Assembly: GCA_023954045.1 (NCBI GenBank)
Contig: JAMLIR010000019.1
Location: 1 to 64,000 of the forward strand
Source: Burkholderiaceae bacterium
GTDB taxonomy: Bacteria > Pseudomonadota > Gammaproteobacteria > Burkholderiales > Burkholderiaceae_E
Direction: 5' to 3'
DNA length: 64,000 nt
Part shown: in pieces, positions 56,159-64,000 of the stretch
Numbering within the stretch: the first letter of the stretch is position 1
Layout: the number at the start of each line of letters is the position of its first letter
Notes under the pieces: generated by a model
What the model saw: only the letters and a program-made list of their open reading frames with translations
What the model was told of the DNA's origin: nothing
Database searches by the model: none
Translations under genes and position numbers: made by a program

Positions 56159-56234
56159 GTCCCGTTCGTCTAGAGGCCTAGGACACGACCCTTTCACGGT
56201 TGTAACAGGGGTTCGAATCCCCTACGGGACGCCA
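56159..56234 (+). tRNA. tRNA-Glu (anticodon TTC)
   Basis: 76 nt. Acceptor GTCCCGT pairs with ACGGGAC; anticodon stem CGACC/GGTTG surrounds CTTTCAC, with anticodon TTC at 56193-56195. The T-arm is CAGGGGTTCGAATCCCCT and CCA is encoded. 36 nt after tRNA-Ala, so probably one transcript. Its 3' end is the likely attachment site of the element that follows. Confidence 0.97.
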
Positions 56235-56298
56235 GCCACTTCCCAAGTGGTTGATTGCACGAAGAATCAAGCCCAGCGCGGCTCTCCAGCCGGTCGGA

Positions 56299-56317
56299 GC
56301 GTACACAACGCGTACAC
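56299..56317. repeat. Two direct copies of GCGTACAC, 11 bp apart
   Basis: GCGTACAC at 56299-56306 and 56310-56317, one helical turn apart, 9 bp before the integrase start. Position suits a recombinase arm site or a repressor operator for int. Confidence 0.45.
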
Positions 56318-56325
56318 TTCGACGG

Positions 56326-57936
56326 ATGGAAGCGATGAAGAAGCCGCCCGGCGTTCACGTCGTCAAGCGCAAGCACTCCACGACCTACTACTTCCGTCGC
56401 CGCATCCCCGGCGACCTCGCTGACTTCTACCCGGAAGGGTGGATCACCGAGAAGCTGCCAGCCAGCCAAGCCGATGCATACGTCCGTGCCGCTGCCAAGT
56501 GGGCCGAGACTGACGCGGAGTTCGAGCAGTTGCGCGCCACCGGCTCGCGCTTCCGTCCCGCGTTGACCGATGCGGAGAAGGTCTTCATCGCCGAGTCAGT
56601 CCGACACGAACTCCTCGACGCCGACGACGAGCATTGGCGCTTCCGGCCGGATGAGCTGTCCGACGAGGCCTACGGCTACCAACTCTCCGACCTCTTTGAC
56701 GACGTAGATGCCGCACTGGTCGCGTCGGCGCCCATGTCGCGCGATCTGCAGCGACGCCTTCAAGCCTCACTGGAAGGCCTTGGCGTTCAACTGGATCCGC
56801 GCGGCGACGAGTTCAGGGATGTGGCGAGGGCCTACCTGCTCGCCGTCAAGGGTGCCCTGAAGGACATCGCACGGCGGCGCGCAGGGACAGCCAACCCGCC
56901 GACTCCTCCGCAGCCGCAGCCGCCAAAGAAGGCAAGAGCGCAGACTGAAGGCGAGCGCCTCGGCGATCTCATCGACTACTGGGCCAGGTACGGAGACCAG
57001 AAGCGAGAGAAGTCCATCGAGGAGGGCAGGGCCGCCGCGCGCCGCTTCGTGGCAGTGGTGGGCGATCTTCCCCTTCAGTCCATCGAGAAGGCCCACTTCA
57101 TCGCCTTTCGGGATGACCGTCTGAAGACCGTGTCGGGCAAGACCGTCAAGAAGGACGTGTCACTCCTTGCCGCAGCCTTCAATGTTGCCTTGGCGGACGA
57201 CAAGTTCGGGCTGAAGGTGAACCCGGCGGATCACCTGCGGATCCCTCTCGGTGAATCGAAGAAGCGCGGACAGTTCTCCGCCGGGCAACTGAAGACGATC
57301 TTCGAGTCCCCGGTCTTCACGAAGGGCGCGCGCCCCGAGGGCGGAAAGGGAGATACAGCCTTCTGGTTGCCACTGGTCGCACTCTTCACGGGGGCGCGTC
57401 TCACGGAGGCCGCATCGATCCGGCTGGACGAGATCGGCTCGGCGGACGGGATTCACTTCATCCACTTCCGGCACGACCCAGCGACGGGCAGGGTGCTGAA
57501 GGCGAATGCATCGGGGAACAAGCGGGTACCGATCCACTCGGAACTCGTTCGGCTGGGCCTGCTGGATCGAGTGAAGGCGCTCCGCAAGGCTGGCGAGACG
57601 CGCCTCTTCCCGGAACTCTGGCGGGGCAAGGTGAAGGACCCTGCCCACAAGTGGGGAGACTGGTGGCGTCGCTATCTCGACGGGCTGGGCCTCGATCAGG
57701 AAGGCCTTGGGGCGCACGCCTTCAGGCACACCTTCGTGTACCTCCTGCGGCAGGCAGGGGTCCCGGAGGATCAGAGGAATGCACTGACGGGGCACGCCGA
57801 CAAGTCGGTGAGTGCGCGTTACGGTGCGCTGGAAGGTTATCCGCTCGGGCCACTGAAGGAGGCTGTGGAGAAGCTGCGTCCGCTGGCGGGTCTTGCGAGG
57901 CCACTGACGGTGCCGCCGCCCGCATCTGGTCCGTGA
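56326..57936 (+). CDS. int: Site-specific tyrosine recombinase (integrase) with DUF6538-like N-terminus
   Basis: 536 residues from ATG 56326 (ATG 56335 is an alternative; TTG 56251 is possible but longer than needed). The N-terminus HVVKRKHSTTYYFRRRIPGD resembles the DUF6538 arm-binding domain. A SAM-like core-binding domain lies near residues 225-320. Catalytic residues are readable: Arg in TGARLTEAASIRL, HAFRHTFVYLLRQAG (His-x-x-Arg), His in ALTGHADKSV and Tyr in SARYGALEG. Expected to integrate at tRNA-Glu. Its stop abuts the convergent DUF2513 stop in the palindrome TGATCA. Confidence 0.95.
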   Translation: MEAMKKPPGVHVVKRKHSTTYYFRRRIPGDLADFYPEGWITEKLPASQADAYVRAAAKWAETDAEFEQLRATGSRFRPALTDAEKVFIAESVRHELLDADDEHWRFRPDELSDEAYGYQLSDLFDDVDAALVASAPMSRDLQRRLQASLEGLGVQLDPRGDEFRDVARAYLLAVKGALKDIARRRAGTANPPTPPQPQPPKKARAQTEGERLGDLIDYWARYGDQKREKSIEEGRAAARRFVAVVGDLPLQSIEKAHFIAFRDDRLKTVSGKTVKKDVSLLAAAFNVALADDKFGLKVNPADHLRIPLGESKKRGQFSAGQLKTIFESPVFTKGARPEGGKGDTAFWLPLVALFTGARLTEAASIRLDEIGSADGIHFIHFRHDPATGRVLKANASGNKRVPIHSELVRLGLLDRVKALRKAGETRLFPELWRGKVKDPAHKWGDWWRRYLDGLGLDQEGLGAHAFRHTFVYLLRQAGVPEDQRNALTGHADKSVSARYGALEGYPLGPLKEAVEKLRPLAGLARPLTVPPPASGP

Positions 57937-59654: not shown

Positions 59655-60920
59655 TCAGTCAACGCGTACGCCGAGTGCAGTCCAGAACACCGATTCATGC
59701 ACGAGCGGGATCCCGTATGCGCGCGCCTTCTTCGCCTTGCCCGACTGCGAGAGCGGGTCAGATACGACCAGGTAGTTGAGCTTCTTGGTCACGTTGTCAA
59801 TGACCGTAACGCCCGCTTCGCTCGCTCTGCGCTTCGCCAACTCCCGCGAGATCAGTTCCCCGCCAATCGAGCAGGCGCTCTCACCAGTGAAGCAGACCGT
59901 CCGTCCAACATACTCATGCTGAACGCCGGCCCCCGCCGCCGGTTCGCTCCGAGACGGGATGGTTGCGGCATTGTGAAGGGATTCCTCCGCTTCTATCGCT
60001 GCCACGCTCGCGTCATCGAGTCCCACCAGGTGCGCCACGCGGGATAGATCCCTGCGTCCGCTTGCTGTCACAGGACCGTCCTGAAGTGCAGCGCGGACAA
60101 GCCGTCGAAGCCGATGGCGATGAATCTCCGCGATCTGGGATCGGCCGAGGTTCCATCGGTGCGCCATGCCGATCAGGGCCTCTCCCTCGCCCTCGTCTAT
60201 GTGACGATCCATGATCGCTCGACTGAGCAGATCGTCGTATTCAAGCACGCCCGCAGCAGAGCCGAGGTCGTCGGGAAACGCTGCTGCCCGGTCCATCAGT
60301 CGCTGCAGGTAGCCTGGGGGAGCGAGGCGGACACTCTCAGCCTGCTGCCGACTCATCAGCCTGCCGGCGTAAGCGTGGCCGATGCTCGGCCAAGGTACTG
60401 GGCGCCATCTCTCCAGTTCGACCGGATGGGTGTCTGGGCGGTGCATCAAGGCACTCAGTAGCCGAGCGGCTGCCCGCGCATCGTCGAGCGCGACGTGTTG
60501 GCTCCCCTGATATGGCACACCGTATCTCTGGCAGCAATCGATCAGACGGCCCCCGCCGGCCAAGCGCATGGTGCAAAGCTCGGGCACCTCGGGAAGGGTC
60601 ACGCCCGCCCTGCTGAACTCCGCCGCAAGGAAGGCCCGGTCGAATGAGACGTTATGACCGGCGAGTGCCGCCGAACCCTCAAGGCACTCGATCAGCGGCG
60701 CCATCACGTCAACGAACTTGGGTGCCCTTGCCAGATCGCTCGCGGAGACGCCATGGATGCTGACCGGCCCGACATCGCGCTCGGGATTTATGAGCGTACT
60801 CAGTTCGCGGACATCCTCACCCCGCTCATCAACGACCACCACGGCAAGCTCAATGACTCGGTCGTGACGGAACGGATTCAGTCCGGTGGTCTCAACGTCC
60901 ACAACCGCCACAAGCGTCAT
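59655..60920 (-). CDS. DEDDh exonuclease-BRCT domain protein
   Basis: 421 residues from ATG 60920 (GGGGGA about 8 nt upstream; an earlier start is weaker). Exonuclease domain (residues 1-175) shows the DnaQ-type motifs: VAVVDVETTGL (Asp, Glu), LAGHNVSFDRAFL (Asp) and QHVALDDARAAARLL (His, Asp). A helical middle region (about 215-325) with DRHIDEGEGEALIGMAHRW resembles TerB/tellurite-type helical folds only loosely. The C-terminal BRCT (about 340-420) reads YVGRTVCFTGESA, then KKLNYLVVSDPLSQSGKAKKA, like the NAD-dependent ligase BRCT. Probably processes DNA ends; its role in the element is unknown. Confidence 0.85.
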   Translation of the reverse strand: MTLVAVVDVETTGLNPFRHDRVIELAVVVVDERGEDVRELSTLINPERDVGPVSIHGVSASDLARAPKFVDVMAPLIECLEGSAALAGHNVSFDRAFLAAEFSRAGVTLPEVPELCTMRLAGGGRLIDCCQRYGVPYQGSQHVALDDARAAARLLSALMHRPDTHPVELERWRPVPWPSIGHAYAGRLMSRQQAESVRLAPPGYLQRLMDRAAAFPDDLGSAAGVLEYDDLLSRAIMDRHIDEGEGEALIGMAHRWNLGRSQIAEIHRHRLRRLVRAALQDGPVTASGRRDLSRVAHLVGLDDASVAAIEAEESLHNAATIPSRSEPAAGAGVQHEYVGRTVCFTGESACSIGGELISRELAKRRASEAGVTVIDNVTKKLNYLVVSDPLSQSGKAKKARAYGIPLVHESVFWTALGVRVD

Positions 60921-61047
60921 TGCAGGCAATCCCCCGCCCAGCGACCCAGTTGCAGTGGATGATCTCACCGTGGGCCGATACGTTTCAAGCCAGCCCGGCA
61001 GGGCGGGCGAAGCCGCTCAAGGACTGAGCGCGAACTGCTGAACAGAG

Positions 61048-61111: not shown

Positions 61112-61438
61112 TCAGTGCAGTCCTTCCCCAGCCCGCCTGCTGGCGCGTGTGAACCAGTCGGCGGGAAGGAGGGCCTTGCAGTTCGTCCACAGAGAGAAGG
61201 CCTTCGCGACCTCCCCGCGTGCCGAGGACTGCAGGGCAGCTTCGAGGAACCGCGAGGCCCGCCGGCGAGTGGCCTTGGATTCGACCATCGGCCAGCCTGA
61301 AGGGACCTCAAGGCCCACTGCAAGTTTCCCGCGAGCCTCCTCGGCCCAGCTTGCGATCCCACGCGAGAGTGCCAAGTCCCGTTCGATGTGGGCGATGATG
61401 CGGCGCCGTCTGGCGCGAGTCATCCGGTAGGTGGTCAC
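61112..61438 (-). CDS. Hypothetical basic protein of the element
   Basis: 108 residues; ATG 61438 overlaps the preceding stop as ATGA. Basic N-terminus YRMTRARRRRIIAHIERDLA, helical throughout, ending KALLPADWFTRASRRAGEGL. No family recognised. A small DNA-binding protein is possible from its charge. Confidence 0.6.
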   Translation of the reverse strand: MTTYRMTRARRRRIIAHIERDLALSRGIASWAEEARGKLAVGLEVPSGWPMVESKATRRRASRFLEAALQSSARGEVAKAFSLWTNCKALLPADWFTRASRRAGEGLH

Positions 61439-61659
61439 TGAACGCCCCCCGCAGGTTCCCGCCGGTACCAGGCATACGCCTTCAGGAGCCTGTAGATGGC
61501 TCGCACCTGGTGCCCGGTGGGTGTCGTGCCTGTGGCCTCGGCGTAGTCGAGGACGCGCCGCACGTCCTCAAGGGACTTGATCGCCTTGCGCGGGGCGGCT
61601 TGGGGCTTCGTGGCGTGGACGGTCCCGCACAGTCGCCGCGTCTTCGTCGGGATGCTCAT
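61435..61659 (-). CDS. Small hypothetical protein of the element
   Basis: 74 residues, ATG 61659 overlapping the preceding stop (ATGA). Contains SLEDVRRVLDYAEATGTTPT and RAIYRLLKAYAWYRREPAG, two amphipathic helices. Function unknown; coupled translation supports it being real. Confidence 0.6.
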   Translation of the reverse strand: MSIPTKTRRLCGTVHATKPQAAPRKAIKSLEDVRRVLDYAEATGTTPTGHQVRAIYRLLKAYAWYRREPAGGVQ

Positions 61660-61877
61660 TTGCGTCTCCTTTCATTGCGGTGGATCGCCCGTGGAAGAGG
61701 CAAGCGACCGGCACCGACATCGTTCCGGAAGGCCGCGATGCGGGCCACGATGTCTGCCTCCTTCGCTGCACTGGTGGGGTCTTCGAGGAACCATTCCAGT
61801 GCCTCGCGGACCTCGTTCGCGACCCTGAAGGTCTGGGAGATCGTTGGCGGTTGAAGGGCCACGATTCTTACTCCCAC
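61656..61877 (-). CDS. Small hypothetical protein of the element
   Basis: 73 residues from ATG 61877, overlapping the end of the frameshift-extension frame by 10 nt and the next gene by 4 nt. Contains FRVANEVREALEWFLEDPTS and a basic tail. Function unknown. Confidence 0.55.
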   Translation of the reverse strand: MGVRIVALQPPTISQTFRVANEVREALEWFLEDPTSAAKEADIVARIAAFRNDVGAGRLPLPRAIHRNERRRK

Positions 61878-62368
61878 TCGTAGGGCAGATTGCGGAACTC
61901 ACGGTCCATGCGCCGAAGGTTGTGGTCCGCCTGACGGAAGATGCCCTCGATGCCGTTGCCTTCGCAGCTCCGATCTCGCTTCTGCTGCTGCTGTGGACGC
62001 GCCTGCTGCTTGGCAGGGGCCTGGGAGGCCTTCAGAGCCGCTATGCGCCGCTGAACGAGCGCAGCCATGGGCTTGCTCGACTGTGTCCGTGCGACTGCCT
62101 CCGAGGCCTTGACGTAGGCCGCGCGGTCGTTCTTCAGTGCCCACTGCACGAACTCGGCGTGGAGGGCCTGGTTACCGTCGAAGAGTCGGGCTGCGATCAG
62201 TCTCGTGTGTGCGTCAACGAGTCGAAGGGCCATTTCGTAGGCTCGCTCGGGCGTCGTACCGATCTCCTTCGCGAGCGCCTCGCAGTCAACTTCGCCATTG
62301 CCCGCCAGGCCCTTCAAGACATGGTCGAGTGCCACGGCAGTCTGCTCGGGGGCGACCCCCTCGGTCAC
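61868..62368 (-). CDS. Downstream frame of a probable -1 frameshift pair
   Basis: Read alone, this frame has a GTG at 62368 with no good ribosome site and gives 166 residues. But it is open and coding-like much further upstream, to beyond 62566, with no ATG, GTG or TTG there. The pre-GTG part reads FDLDKDDTSVEATERLQAEF, an acidic coding-like stretch. Helical core (VALDHVLKGLAGNGEVDCEA to ALHAEFVQWALKNDRAAYVK), then a Gln-rich linker and a conserved-looking end MDREFRNLPYEWE. Best explained as the extension of the upstream gene through a slippery site; the fusion would be 366 residues. Confidence 0.6.
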   Translation of the reverse strand: MTEGVAPEQTAVALDHVLKGLAGNGEVDCEALAKEIGTTPERAYEMALRLVDAHTRLIAARLFDGNQALHAEFVQWALKNDRAAYVKASEAVARTQSSKPMAALVQRRIAALKASQAPAKQQARPQQQQKRDRSCEGNGIEGIFRQADHNLRRMDREFRNLPYEWE

Positions 62369-62526
62369 TCGCAGGATCTCGGCCTGGTCCTCCGGGTCCG
62401 CGAAGTCCTCGGCAGGGAACTCTGCCTGTAGACGTTCGGTTGCCTCGACTGAGGTGTCGTCCTTGTCAAGGTCGAAGGGCGTAGCTGCCTTGGGCAGCGC
62501 AGGTTCTGCGGCATCAGCAGGATTGA

Positions 62527-62572
62527 CCCCCTCTTCGGGGGCTTCGCCTGCCGTGCCGCTTACCGCTTTCCC
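62527..62572 (-). promoter_or_regulatory. Probable programmed -1 frameshift signal (slippery heptamer and hairpin)
   Basis: On the minus strand the last codons of the upstream frame are TCG GGA AAG CGG TAA, which contain G-GGA-AAG at 62572-62566, an ideal X-XXY-YYZ heptamer. A -1 shift moves ribosomes into the long open frame below. A CCCCC-GAAGA-GGGGG hairpin (62541-62527) follows, 24 nt downstream. Confidence 0.65.
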
Positions 62573-62967
62573 GACGGGGCACTCCCGGCAATCGAGAAGG
62601 AACCGTCATGGTTGCGTACGACCGCGCCAGCCGAGATCGCATCGCGGATCCGCACCTGCAGGCCTCCGAGATCGATCAGGTCGGCTTCGGTAATGTCCGC
62701 TCCAGTGCGGGCCGATCCGAATTGGCTACGGGCCGAAGCAATGCGTCCGTCTTCGGCGATGCCCTCGATGGCCGGCGCCGAGGTCGCGCTCATGTAGCTC
62801 GCCGCGCCGCCTTCAAGGATCTGGACTCGCTCGGCGGCCTTGACCATCCGCTCGGCGTGCTCCTGGCTGTCGCCTTCCTGTTTCGGGAAGAAGTTCACTC
62901 GGACTCCGCCGCCCATGAGCGGGTCGAATTGGACGGTGTGGTCGTTGCTGCTGTGTTCGTTGGACAT
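62560..62967 (-). CDS. Hypothetical protein, upstream frame of the -1 frameshift pair
   Basis: 135 residues from ATG 62967. Contains DHTVQFDPLMGGGVRVNFFP, a helical stretch HAERMVKAAERVQILEGGAA and a C-terminal part ADLIDLGGLQVRIRDAISAG followed by AGSAPSGKR. The zero-frame stop comes two codons after the slippery heptamer. No family recognised. The arrangement of short product and frameshifted long product recalls lambda gpG/gpGT, but no sequence similarity is claimed. Confidence 0.65.
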   Translation of the reverse strand: MSNEHSSNDHTVQFDPLMGGGVRVNFFPKQEGDSQEHAERMVKAAERVQILEGGAASYMSATSAPAIEGIAEDGRIASARSQFGSARTGADITEADLIDLGGLQVRIRDAISAGAVVRNHDGSFSIAGSAPSGKR

Positions 62968-63014: not shown

Positions 63015-63404
63015 TTACGCCGCTGGCGGGGGCGATGCCTTGATCCCGCCCTTCGAGTGGACCGACGGGACCGGGATCTCCGGATAGCCCGCTGGTGGGG
63101 TGGCCGCACTGCGTGGCGGAATGACCCCTTGGGGGACGTCGGAAGGGGCCGGGAAGGGCAATGCGAGGCCCTGCGGGACCTTCGCGGGATTCGATGCTCG
63201 ATCTTCTTTGGCGAACTCAGGGCCGATGGTGGATACGACGTCGGCGATGCTCTTGATCATCGATGCTGAGAGATCGGGCAGGGCGGTCTCCTCCAGGTAC
63301 CGCTCGCACTTGTCGAGGAGCTTTCTTCGGAGAATCTGAACGTCGATCTTCCGGGGCCTGCCGCCTTTGTTGGTCGGAGGTGGATTGCTGTTGGTGCTGC
63401 TCAT
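63015..63404 (-). CDS. Hypothetical protein of the element
   Basis: 129 residues from ATG 63404, overlapping the previous stop as ATGA. The N-terminal NKGGRPRKIDVQILRRKLLD is a basic AT-hook-like GGRPRK followed by a helix, a start often seen in small terminase subunits and DNA-binding proteins. The C-terminal half is Pro-rich. Function not assigned. Confidence 0.6.
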   Translation of the reverse strand: MSSTNSNPPPTNKGGRPRKIDVQILRRKLLDKCERYLEETALPDLSASMIKSIADVVSTIGPEFAKEDRASNPAKVPQGLALPFPAPSDVPQGVIPPRSAATPPAGYPEIPVPSVHSKGGIKASPPPAA

Positions 63405-64000
63405 GCTTCGTACTGCTCCATGTTGTGGTCGTCTTCGTCGAAGTGATCGCACTGGCCGTGCTGTTCGCACTGCTCATCGACGGGCTTTCTGCGATACCGG
63501 CGCTTTCCGTTCCGTGCCCTGCGATCACGCTCAAGGGTCGTGATGATCAGAGACACAAGGGGGCCGATTCGTTCGAGGATGGCTCCGACCATCGCTCGCG
63601 AGCGGCGAAGGCTCCGTAGCTCCCCACCTCCTCGGTGCTTCAGCGGCGCCAGCTTGCCGAGGAGTCGCCCGACCTGGGCAGCGGTGTAGTCGCCGTCCTC
63701 GTACGCCTCGGGGTCAGTCCGCCACAGGTGGCAGTAGACGGCCGCAGTGATTGCGATGACGTCCAGAGGGTCTGCCCCGGCATTGGCGAGCCTGCGTAGG
63801 AGGTCGAGCTTCGGGTCTTCATGGACAGCTTTCGACCTGAAGAGACGCTGCAGGCCCTGCACGGCGACCTGAAGGCCCGGATGGTGGACCTGCATGGGGT
63901 CCTGCAGTAGATCCATGACCTCCTTCTGGATCCTCCTGATCGGCTCGGCTGGAAGGTGGCGCCGGCCGATGCCTCCGTACCGAGACCAAGCCGAGTAGTG
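63401..64000 (-). CDS. Hypothetical protein of the element, 5' end probably outside window
   Basis: The frame from stop 63401 is open to base 64000. An ATG at 63916 would give 171 residues, but its AAGGAGG lies only 2 nt away, and the upstream codons (SAWSRYGGIGRRHLPAEPIR, then RIQKEVM) look coding and continue a helix. I therefore treat it as partial. Later segments are LDVIAITAAVYCHLWRTDPE, TAAQVGRLLGKLAPLKHRGG and a basic region RRARNGKRRYRRKP with an acidic His-rich tail. No family recognised. Confidence 0.5.
   Translation of the reverse strand, partial: HYSAWSRYGGIGRRHLPAEPIRRIQKEVMDLLQDPMQVHHPGLQVAVQGLQRLFRSKAVHEDPKLDLLRRLANAGADPLDVIAITAAVYCHLWRTDPEAYEDGDYTAAQVGRLLGKLAPLKHRGGGELRSLRRSRAMVGAILERIGPLVSLIITTLERDRRARNGKRRYRRKPVDEQCEQHGQCDHFDEDDHNMEQYEA

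Follow-up and report, generated by a model that had tools for sequence, protein, structure and literature searches.

A putative programmed -1 frameshift gene of an apparently undescribed protein family in a tRNA-Glu-integrated island of a Burkholderiaceae bacterium

Are the two leftward reading frames found near the end of a stretch of Burkholderiaceae DNA two genes, or one gene that is read in two frames? The question is raised by positions 61868-62967 of the window (i.e., the whole stretch of 64,000 nucleotides that was analysed, contig JAMLIR010000019.1). In the initial annotation of this DNA, an upstream frame was placed at 62967-62560 and a -1 frame was extended from there to 61868, and these coordinates hold. 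The upstream or 0 frame (62560..62967, minus strand) starts with ATG and encodes the N part, a short product of 135 amino acids with homologues (P0005, P0006, and P0008). Its 3' end reads TCG GGA AAG CGG TAA, and comprises: (i) a slippery heptamer, G GGA AAG (62566..62572, minus strand); and (ii) a spacer of 6 nt, CGGTAA (62560..62565, minus strand), which contains the 0-frame stop codon. The -1 frame (61868..62569, minus strand) would add 233 residues after the slip, corresponding to a variable linker followed by a helical C part with the KASEAVARTQSSKPM motif. The predicted fusion has 366 residues, and both product sizes of the initial annotation (135 and 366 residues) were reproduced.

The heptamer is, as had been proposed, a perfect -1 slippery site: GGGAAAG lies in the X-XXY-YYZ phase and occurs only once in the 1,100-base gene. 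By itself, its presence is ordinary, as the 64-kb window contains three occurrences versus 3.8 expected; what counts for the signal is its phase, position and conservation, not the mere presence of a heptamer. A frame scan confirmed that the -1 frame is open from the heptamer to 61868 and that no ATG, GTG or TTG occurs in it for about 200 nt, until the GTG at 62368.

In our reading, the two frames very probably constitute one gene expressed by programmed -1 frameshifting, with a Shine-Dalgarno (SD)-like sequence and a stem as stimulators. Most ribosomes would stop at the TAA, giving the 135-residue protein, and a minority would slip back one base on G-GGA-AAG, with the Gly- and Lys-tRNAs re-pairing on GGG AAA, giving the 366-residue fusion. 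As in Escherichia coli dnaX, the slip would be stimulated by an SD-like sequence 9 nt upstream and by a long stem-loop 6 nt downstream, and its rate would be set by both elements. The tRNA-Lys set of the host, for which both search patterns used gave 0 hits, affects AAG slippage as well. Strong support for programmed -1 frameshifting comes from the sequence comparisons described below; that ribosomes shift, and how often, we infer from them.

The comparison set consists of four cassettes from three draft assemblies: (i) the window copy, W; (ii) C4, a paralogue on contig C4 of the same genome; (iii) J, a cassette on MAG contig JAKOVA010000039.1 (L003/L012), taken from a species-genome collection; and (iv) G052, a distant cassette (L017) in a genome of the same family, which was reached via the profile of the Zn-finger-like neighbour. 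W and C4, which come from one genome, share 48-49% identity in the N part and 47-51% in the C part. When the halves of G052 were aligned with the profiles of the other three in single hhalign comparisons, the N half gave an E-value of 1e-4 (probability 58%) and the C half an E-value of 1.7e-4 (probability 49%). On their own, these matches are modest evidence of relatedness; G052 also has its genes in the order of the other copies (Zn protein, short protein, N part, C part).

J is recorded as an actinomycete MAG (Actinomycetes label). Its contig is probably misbinned, because the flank beside its tRNA-Ala has an ORF in common with the flank of C4. At the DNA level, W and J are near-identical in two blocks, 62960-62861 (100/100) and 62390-62091 (299/300), and between 62810 and approximately 62440 their identity per block is 38-71%, with gaps. 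The pair thus looks like a mosaic in which blocks of 99-100% identity surround a half-diverged middle, as if they had been recombined between islands. Since they share recombined blocks, W and J are not fully independent.

The family is rare among the genomes searched. With P0001 or A1 as query, matches were obtained in 1 of 101 genomes of relatives, 1 of 399 of the order, 1 of 369 of the class and 3 of 398 of the phylum, and the strong ones belong to the window's own genome only. With the profile of the Zn protein, hits were obtained in 3 of 101 genomes of relatives, 3 of 74 of the family and 3 of 399 of the order, the own genome being included each time. Regarding the four other genomes with a match to this profile, G052 has the cassette, in G004 the match lies at a contig end, and in G432 and G173 the stretch read contains a Zn-finger-like relative with no frameshift gene beside it. 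Zn-finger-like relatives at a contig end or without an adjoining frameshift gene are located at L018:5587-5808, L031 and L032:10682-11395.

The junction itself is the best conserved point of the cassette. The initial annotation had suggested that conservation of the heptamer, the frame order and the gap be checked in relatives; heptamer, frame order and junction are kept in all four cassettes: within otherwise diverged sequence, TCGGGAAAG is identical and keeps its phase where the N frame stops, being placed directly before the stop codon in J and G052 and one codon before it in W and C4. When the region from -45 to +53 was divided into blocks of nine bases and compared without gaps, the block of the heptamer showed 93% identity (mean of six pairs), versus 26-52% in the ten flanking blocks. 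The most telling comparison is that between W and J, in which the signal is retained inside the stretch of only 38-71% identity.

This pattern bears on the possibility that a once single gene was broken by an indel or by an assembly error. Decay cannot be dismissed by function, since neither half belongs to a known family, and the assemblies are draft. Nevertheless, the same phase and heptamer are found in four cassettes from three assemblies, no in-frame fused homologue was present among the matches from the homologue searches, and the -1 frame of C4 keeps its coding character over a stretch without start codons. With the copies C4, J and G052 already contradicting it, a broken gene is a very improbable explanation.

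The coding character of C4 deserves a closer look. Between its last stop and a point 303 nt beyond the base at which the heptamer begins, the -1 frame of this paralogue contains no ATG, GTG or TTG, and along 100 codons of that stretch it differs from W at 32, 38 and 68 first, second and third codon positions, respectively (binomial P 8e-5 for the excess at third positions). Because the stretch has a coding bias, it is presumably translated, and in the absence of a start codon the conventional entry would be via the N frame. The initial annotation had described some 200 nt of W as coding-like and start-less; the start-less coding stretch is borne out by C4, but in the part of W that precedes its own GTG, taken alone, the coding character is weak (third positions account for 35 of the 80 differences from C4, P 0.03).

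In J and G052, the situation at the junction is different. The -1 frame of J reads AAA GTG there and that of G052 reads AAA GTG ATG, so that re-initiation is possible in both. It could then be argued that the cassette consists of two translationally coupled genes, with the downstream protein being produced by re-initiation near the stop and the GGGA or the upstream SD serving the start. G052 indeed reads TGATG with the ATG in the -1 frame, the GTG of J overlaps the stop, and frame transitions of this sort are known to result, among other causes, from coupling (PMC3711429). But W and C4 have approximately 200 and 300 nt after the site with no ATG, GTG or TTG, even though the stretch of C4 is coding, and in J the distance from the SD to the GTG is 16 nt, longer than usual. 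Furthermore, coupling leaves unexplained both the in-phase heptamer and the stem of 52-60 nt found 6 nt after it. Homologues with a separately started downstream frame, or without the heptamer, had been named in the initial annotation as evidence against frameshifting: possible starts do exist in J and G052, but both copies keep the heptamer. Since they keep it, and since lambda G/T, like J and G052, has a GTG after the same heptamer, frameshifting would be the common denominator of the four copies. For J and G052 this argument is suggestive, not proof. On balance, coupling seems improbable as a general account of the cassette.

Programmed frameshifting, on the other hand, would account for the stem. 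In W, a stem-loop of 52 nt (62508..62559, minus strand) with a 13-bp outer stem has a predicted energy of -36.7 kcal/mol. The C5/G5 hairpin reported in the initial annotation exists, but it is only the apical tip of this structure, which starts 6 nt after the heptamer. In C4 and J, as in W, the closed hairpin of highest stability begins at exactly this distance, and the lengths in W, C4 and J are 52, 60 and 58 nt, respectively; the energies of C4 and J are -40.8 and -36.6 kcal/mol, and the three hairpins amount to 0.63-0.71 kcal per nt. That of G052 is shorter (40 nt, -25.3 kcal/mol), and depending on whether its start is taken at 4 or 7 nt downstream its energy is -25.3 or -23.3 kcal/mol. The rules of Sharma and co-workers for -1 signals ask for a hairpin that starts 4-10 nt downstream and has at least 7.6 kcal/mol (PMC4066793); all four cassettes have such a hairpin, which starts at 4 or 7 nt in G052 and at 6 nt in the other three.

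Several controls indicate that these hairpins are unusual for their surroundings. Compared with 300 shuffles, the fold of +6..+75 has z-scores of -4.3, -5.0 and -4.6 (W, C4 and J), and the 60-nt window at the site is matched by 0.9, 0.3 and 0.3% of the windows of each gene. At random positions of the window's island, 1.5% of 400 have a hairpin of -35 kcal/mol or better 4-10 nt downstream. When codons were replaced by synonymous ones and the amino acids of the -1 frame were kept, 7, 0 and 61 of 1000 sequences were as stable as W, C4 and J, as were 17 of 1000 in the case of G052; this null is weakest in J (6.1%). The signal corresponds to the whole stem, since windows that cut off the outer stem are unremarkable in C4 and J: those from +21 give z-scores of -0.1 to +0.1 (C4) and -0.5 to +0.3 (J), and the windows of +6..+55 give p 0.06 in both. 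Between W and J, 13 of the 13 pairs of the outer stem are kept, two of them being exchanged on both sides in a compensated manner; the shuffle control of this covariation, which has two rows only, is not decisive, as 123 of 500 shuffles reach the level of W and J.

Upstream of the heptamer, W has an internal SD-like sequence, GGGAG (62582..62586, minus strand), 9 nt before it. The corresponding sequences are AGGAGG at 9 nt in C4, GGAGG at 10 nt in J and GGGGG at 10 nt in G052. All four are within 9-14 nt, the distance that PMC5009743 gives for internal SDs in -1 shifting, with CCUCC assumed as the anti-SD of the host. At that offset, the share of positions with an equal or better anti-SD pairing is 6.5% in the W gene, 0.7% in C4, 3.3% in J and 1.9% in G052. 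Over the four genes the combined Fisher P is 2e-4, a value to be read with two cautions: the site was picked once the sequences had been inspected, and CCUCC was assumed. Stronger SD-like places exist elsewhere in the W and J genes.

The spacings of both stimulators also bear on whether the two products could arise from slippage of the polymerase, a form of recoding that does occur in bacteria (PMC5009743). This is extremely unlikely here: the site is G3A3 only, with no long single-base run, and an SD and a stem-loop at ribosome-specific spacings play no part in transcriptional slippage.

Signals that combine an internal SD, a slippery heptamer ending in AAG and a downstream stem-loop are known from E. 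coli dnaX (available text of PMC7282821 and PMC5009743). The two cases differ in the heptamer (A-AAA-AAG in dnaX versus G-GGA-AAG here) and in the shift product, which is shorter than the normal one in dnaX (PMC5009743) and longer here. The likeness to dnaX concerns the signal, and dnaX was not named in any of the library searches. For E. coli, G_GGA_AAG is reported as one of the three heptamers with the highest efficiency when stimulators are present (PMC4066793). The orfA/orfB genes of the IS3 family also use -1 frameshifting with SD and hairpin stimulators, and, per nucleotide, the hairpins of W, C4 and J are more stable than the mean of the IS3 family, 0.452 kcal/nt (PMC4066793). Unlike orfA/orfB, neither frame of our cassette has a transposase domain: no transposase catalytic domain was found in either of them in searches of Pfam and NCBIfam.

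The heptamer itself has a parallel in lambda G/G-T. As claimed in the initial annotation, the G gene uses the same heptamer, which we located in the same phase in the lambda sequence, near the end of a frame of about 140 codons. One might then accept the frameshifting and regard the gene as a tail assembly chaperone pair of the gpG/gpGT type in a remnant prophage, given the shared heptamer, the similar size of the first frame and the position of the heptamer near its end. Against this, hhalign found no sequence similarity between both halves and lambda G and T (probability 0.2% each, with shallow profiles that make this a weak test), and the N part is predicted to consist mostly of strands. 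No match to capsid, portal, terminase, tape measure or tail proteins was obtained among the island proteins scanned, a set that omits some small ORFs, and no tape measure or tail genes were recognised. The neighbours of the cassette (Zn-finger-like, 151-aa, 73-aa and 74-aa ORFs) gave no tail match either, nor does the cassette lie in the tail-tube/tape-measure position. In lambda, moreover, no SD-like sequence is seen by eye at the corresponding place. A tail chaperone therefore appears very unlikely.

What, then, might the frameshift gene encode? The initial annotation had recognised neither half and suggested an undescribed family, which is supported within the resources covered: neither half had a convincing family match in Pfam, PHROGs, NCBIfam, PADLOC or PDB sequences. 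Likewise, among the papers listed on frameshifting in prophages and integrative elements, phage satellites, genomic islands and PICI, no title or abstract opening mentions such a gene. The structure models are weak (pLDDT 51 and 66); the AlphaFold model of the N part has mostly strands, with a pLDDT of 83-90 over about residues 71-120, and the C part is predicted to be all helical. Compared with three scaffolding proteins of the T7 gp9 type, the C part reached an hhalign probability of 0.3%. The KASEAVARTQSSKPM motif is identical in W, J and C4, but G052 retains it only in part (RTQS.K). Between the slip site and the C part, the amino acids of the linker vary, which would be expected if this stretch is under constraint chiefly at the RNA level. 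In summary, the recoding signal is dnaX-like and of a known kind, and the protein family appears to be undescribed.

By analogy with gpG/gpGT, two forms of which are needed in a set ratio (available text of PMC5009743), the C part would be an adaptor present on a small fraction of N-domain oligomers. We tentatively propose that the N part, which both forms share, either forms oligomers or binds a target common to them, that the minority C part is the adaptor, and that frameshifting fixes the ratio of both forms in an assembly step; a satellite-like island would need this step for DNA processing or for its mobilisation. We regard this as a working suggestion that is somewhat more likely to be wrong than right.

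The genomic setting is that of an integrated element. The initial annotation had assigned the gene to a tRNA-Glu element, and in fact the 3' end of the tRNA-Glu (56159..56234, plus strand), the integration site, is repeated over 20 nt at C11:70684-70703, which bounds an island of about 14.5 kb. A tyrosine integrase (56251..57936, plus strand) is located next to the tRNA. Upstream of the cassette are: (i) a neighbour of up to 151 aa (63015..63470, minus strand; conserved part from near 63407), found beside the cassette in all four cases; and (ii) a 245-aa protein with a Zn-finger/HNH-like N end (63401..64000, minus strand, extending to C11:64138), also present in the four. On the other side, an ORF of 73 aa (61656..61877, minus strand) overlaps the end of the -1 frame and is kept in J, as is an ORF of 74 aa (61435..61659, minus strand), the latter as part of a longer ORF. 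The island also encodes a DUF2513 protein, a serine recombinase and a helicase-like protein related to YonV of phage SPbeta (33.5% identity), which is matched by 55 records of phages and 28 of plasmids.

In G052 (L017 and L022:5103-6904), the cassette is near the same tRNA-Glu and beside a similar integrase; the contents between cassette and integrase differ. Those of J and C4 adjoin a tRNA-Ala, near which the script used for the window found no attachment repeat; C4 is truncated by the end of its contig. The frameshift gene looks like it belongs to the shared part of tRNA-integrated islands, and the defence genes would be their cargo.

Phage satellites are described as elements of 7-20 kb with an integrase and replication genes and without structural genes in the available text of PMC13376191. 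The anatomy of the window's island fits such a satellite: it shares with PICI and the like its size of about 14.5 kb, the attachment repeats, the integrase, a phage-type helicase and the fact that no structural gene was recognised among the proteins scanned. It differs from them in that no satellite marker gene was recognised. It is conceivable, at slightly below even chances, that the cassette is a core gene of tRNA-integrated, possibly satellite, islands, in which frameshifting would set the ratio of short to extended protein in an island-specific machine for assembly, replication or packaging.

The best-known cases of conserved programmed frameshifting in bacteria and in the mobile elements they carry are insertion sequences, tail chaperones, dnaX, prfB and csoS2. 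If our reading is true, the present gene would be controlled by frameshifting although it is neither part of an insertion sequence nor a tail chaperone, and its protein family would be new to description; a gene that is shared by islands and keeps a three-part signal through divergence would add that family to the known list. The 366-residue product would escape gene callers, since two of the four copies lack a start codon for the C half at the junction. The four variants also provide a natural G-GGA-AAG cassette useful for reporter work, and the locus points to an undescribed type of island carrying candidate defence genes.

One of these candidates, a DEDDh exonuclease-BRCT protein (59655-60968, minus strand), corresponds to the PADLOC candidate defence PDC-S48 (E 2e-109) and has a close relative in J. 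Beyond the window, near the far end of the island, there is a gene for an OLD-like AAA-TOPRIM protein (L004:16416-18140, i.e., C11:68415-70139), and an ORF of 113 aa sits between this gene and the attachment repeat.
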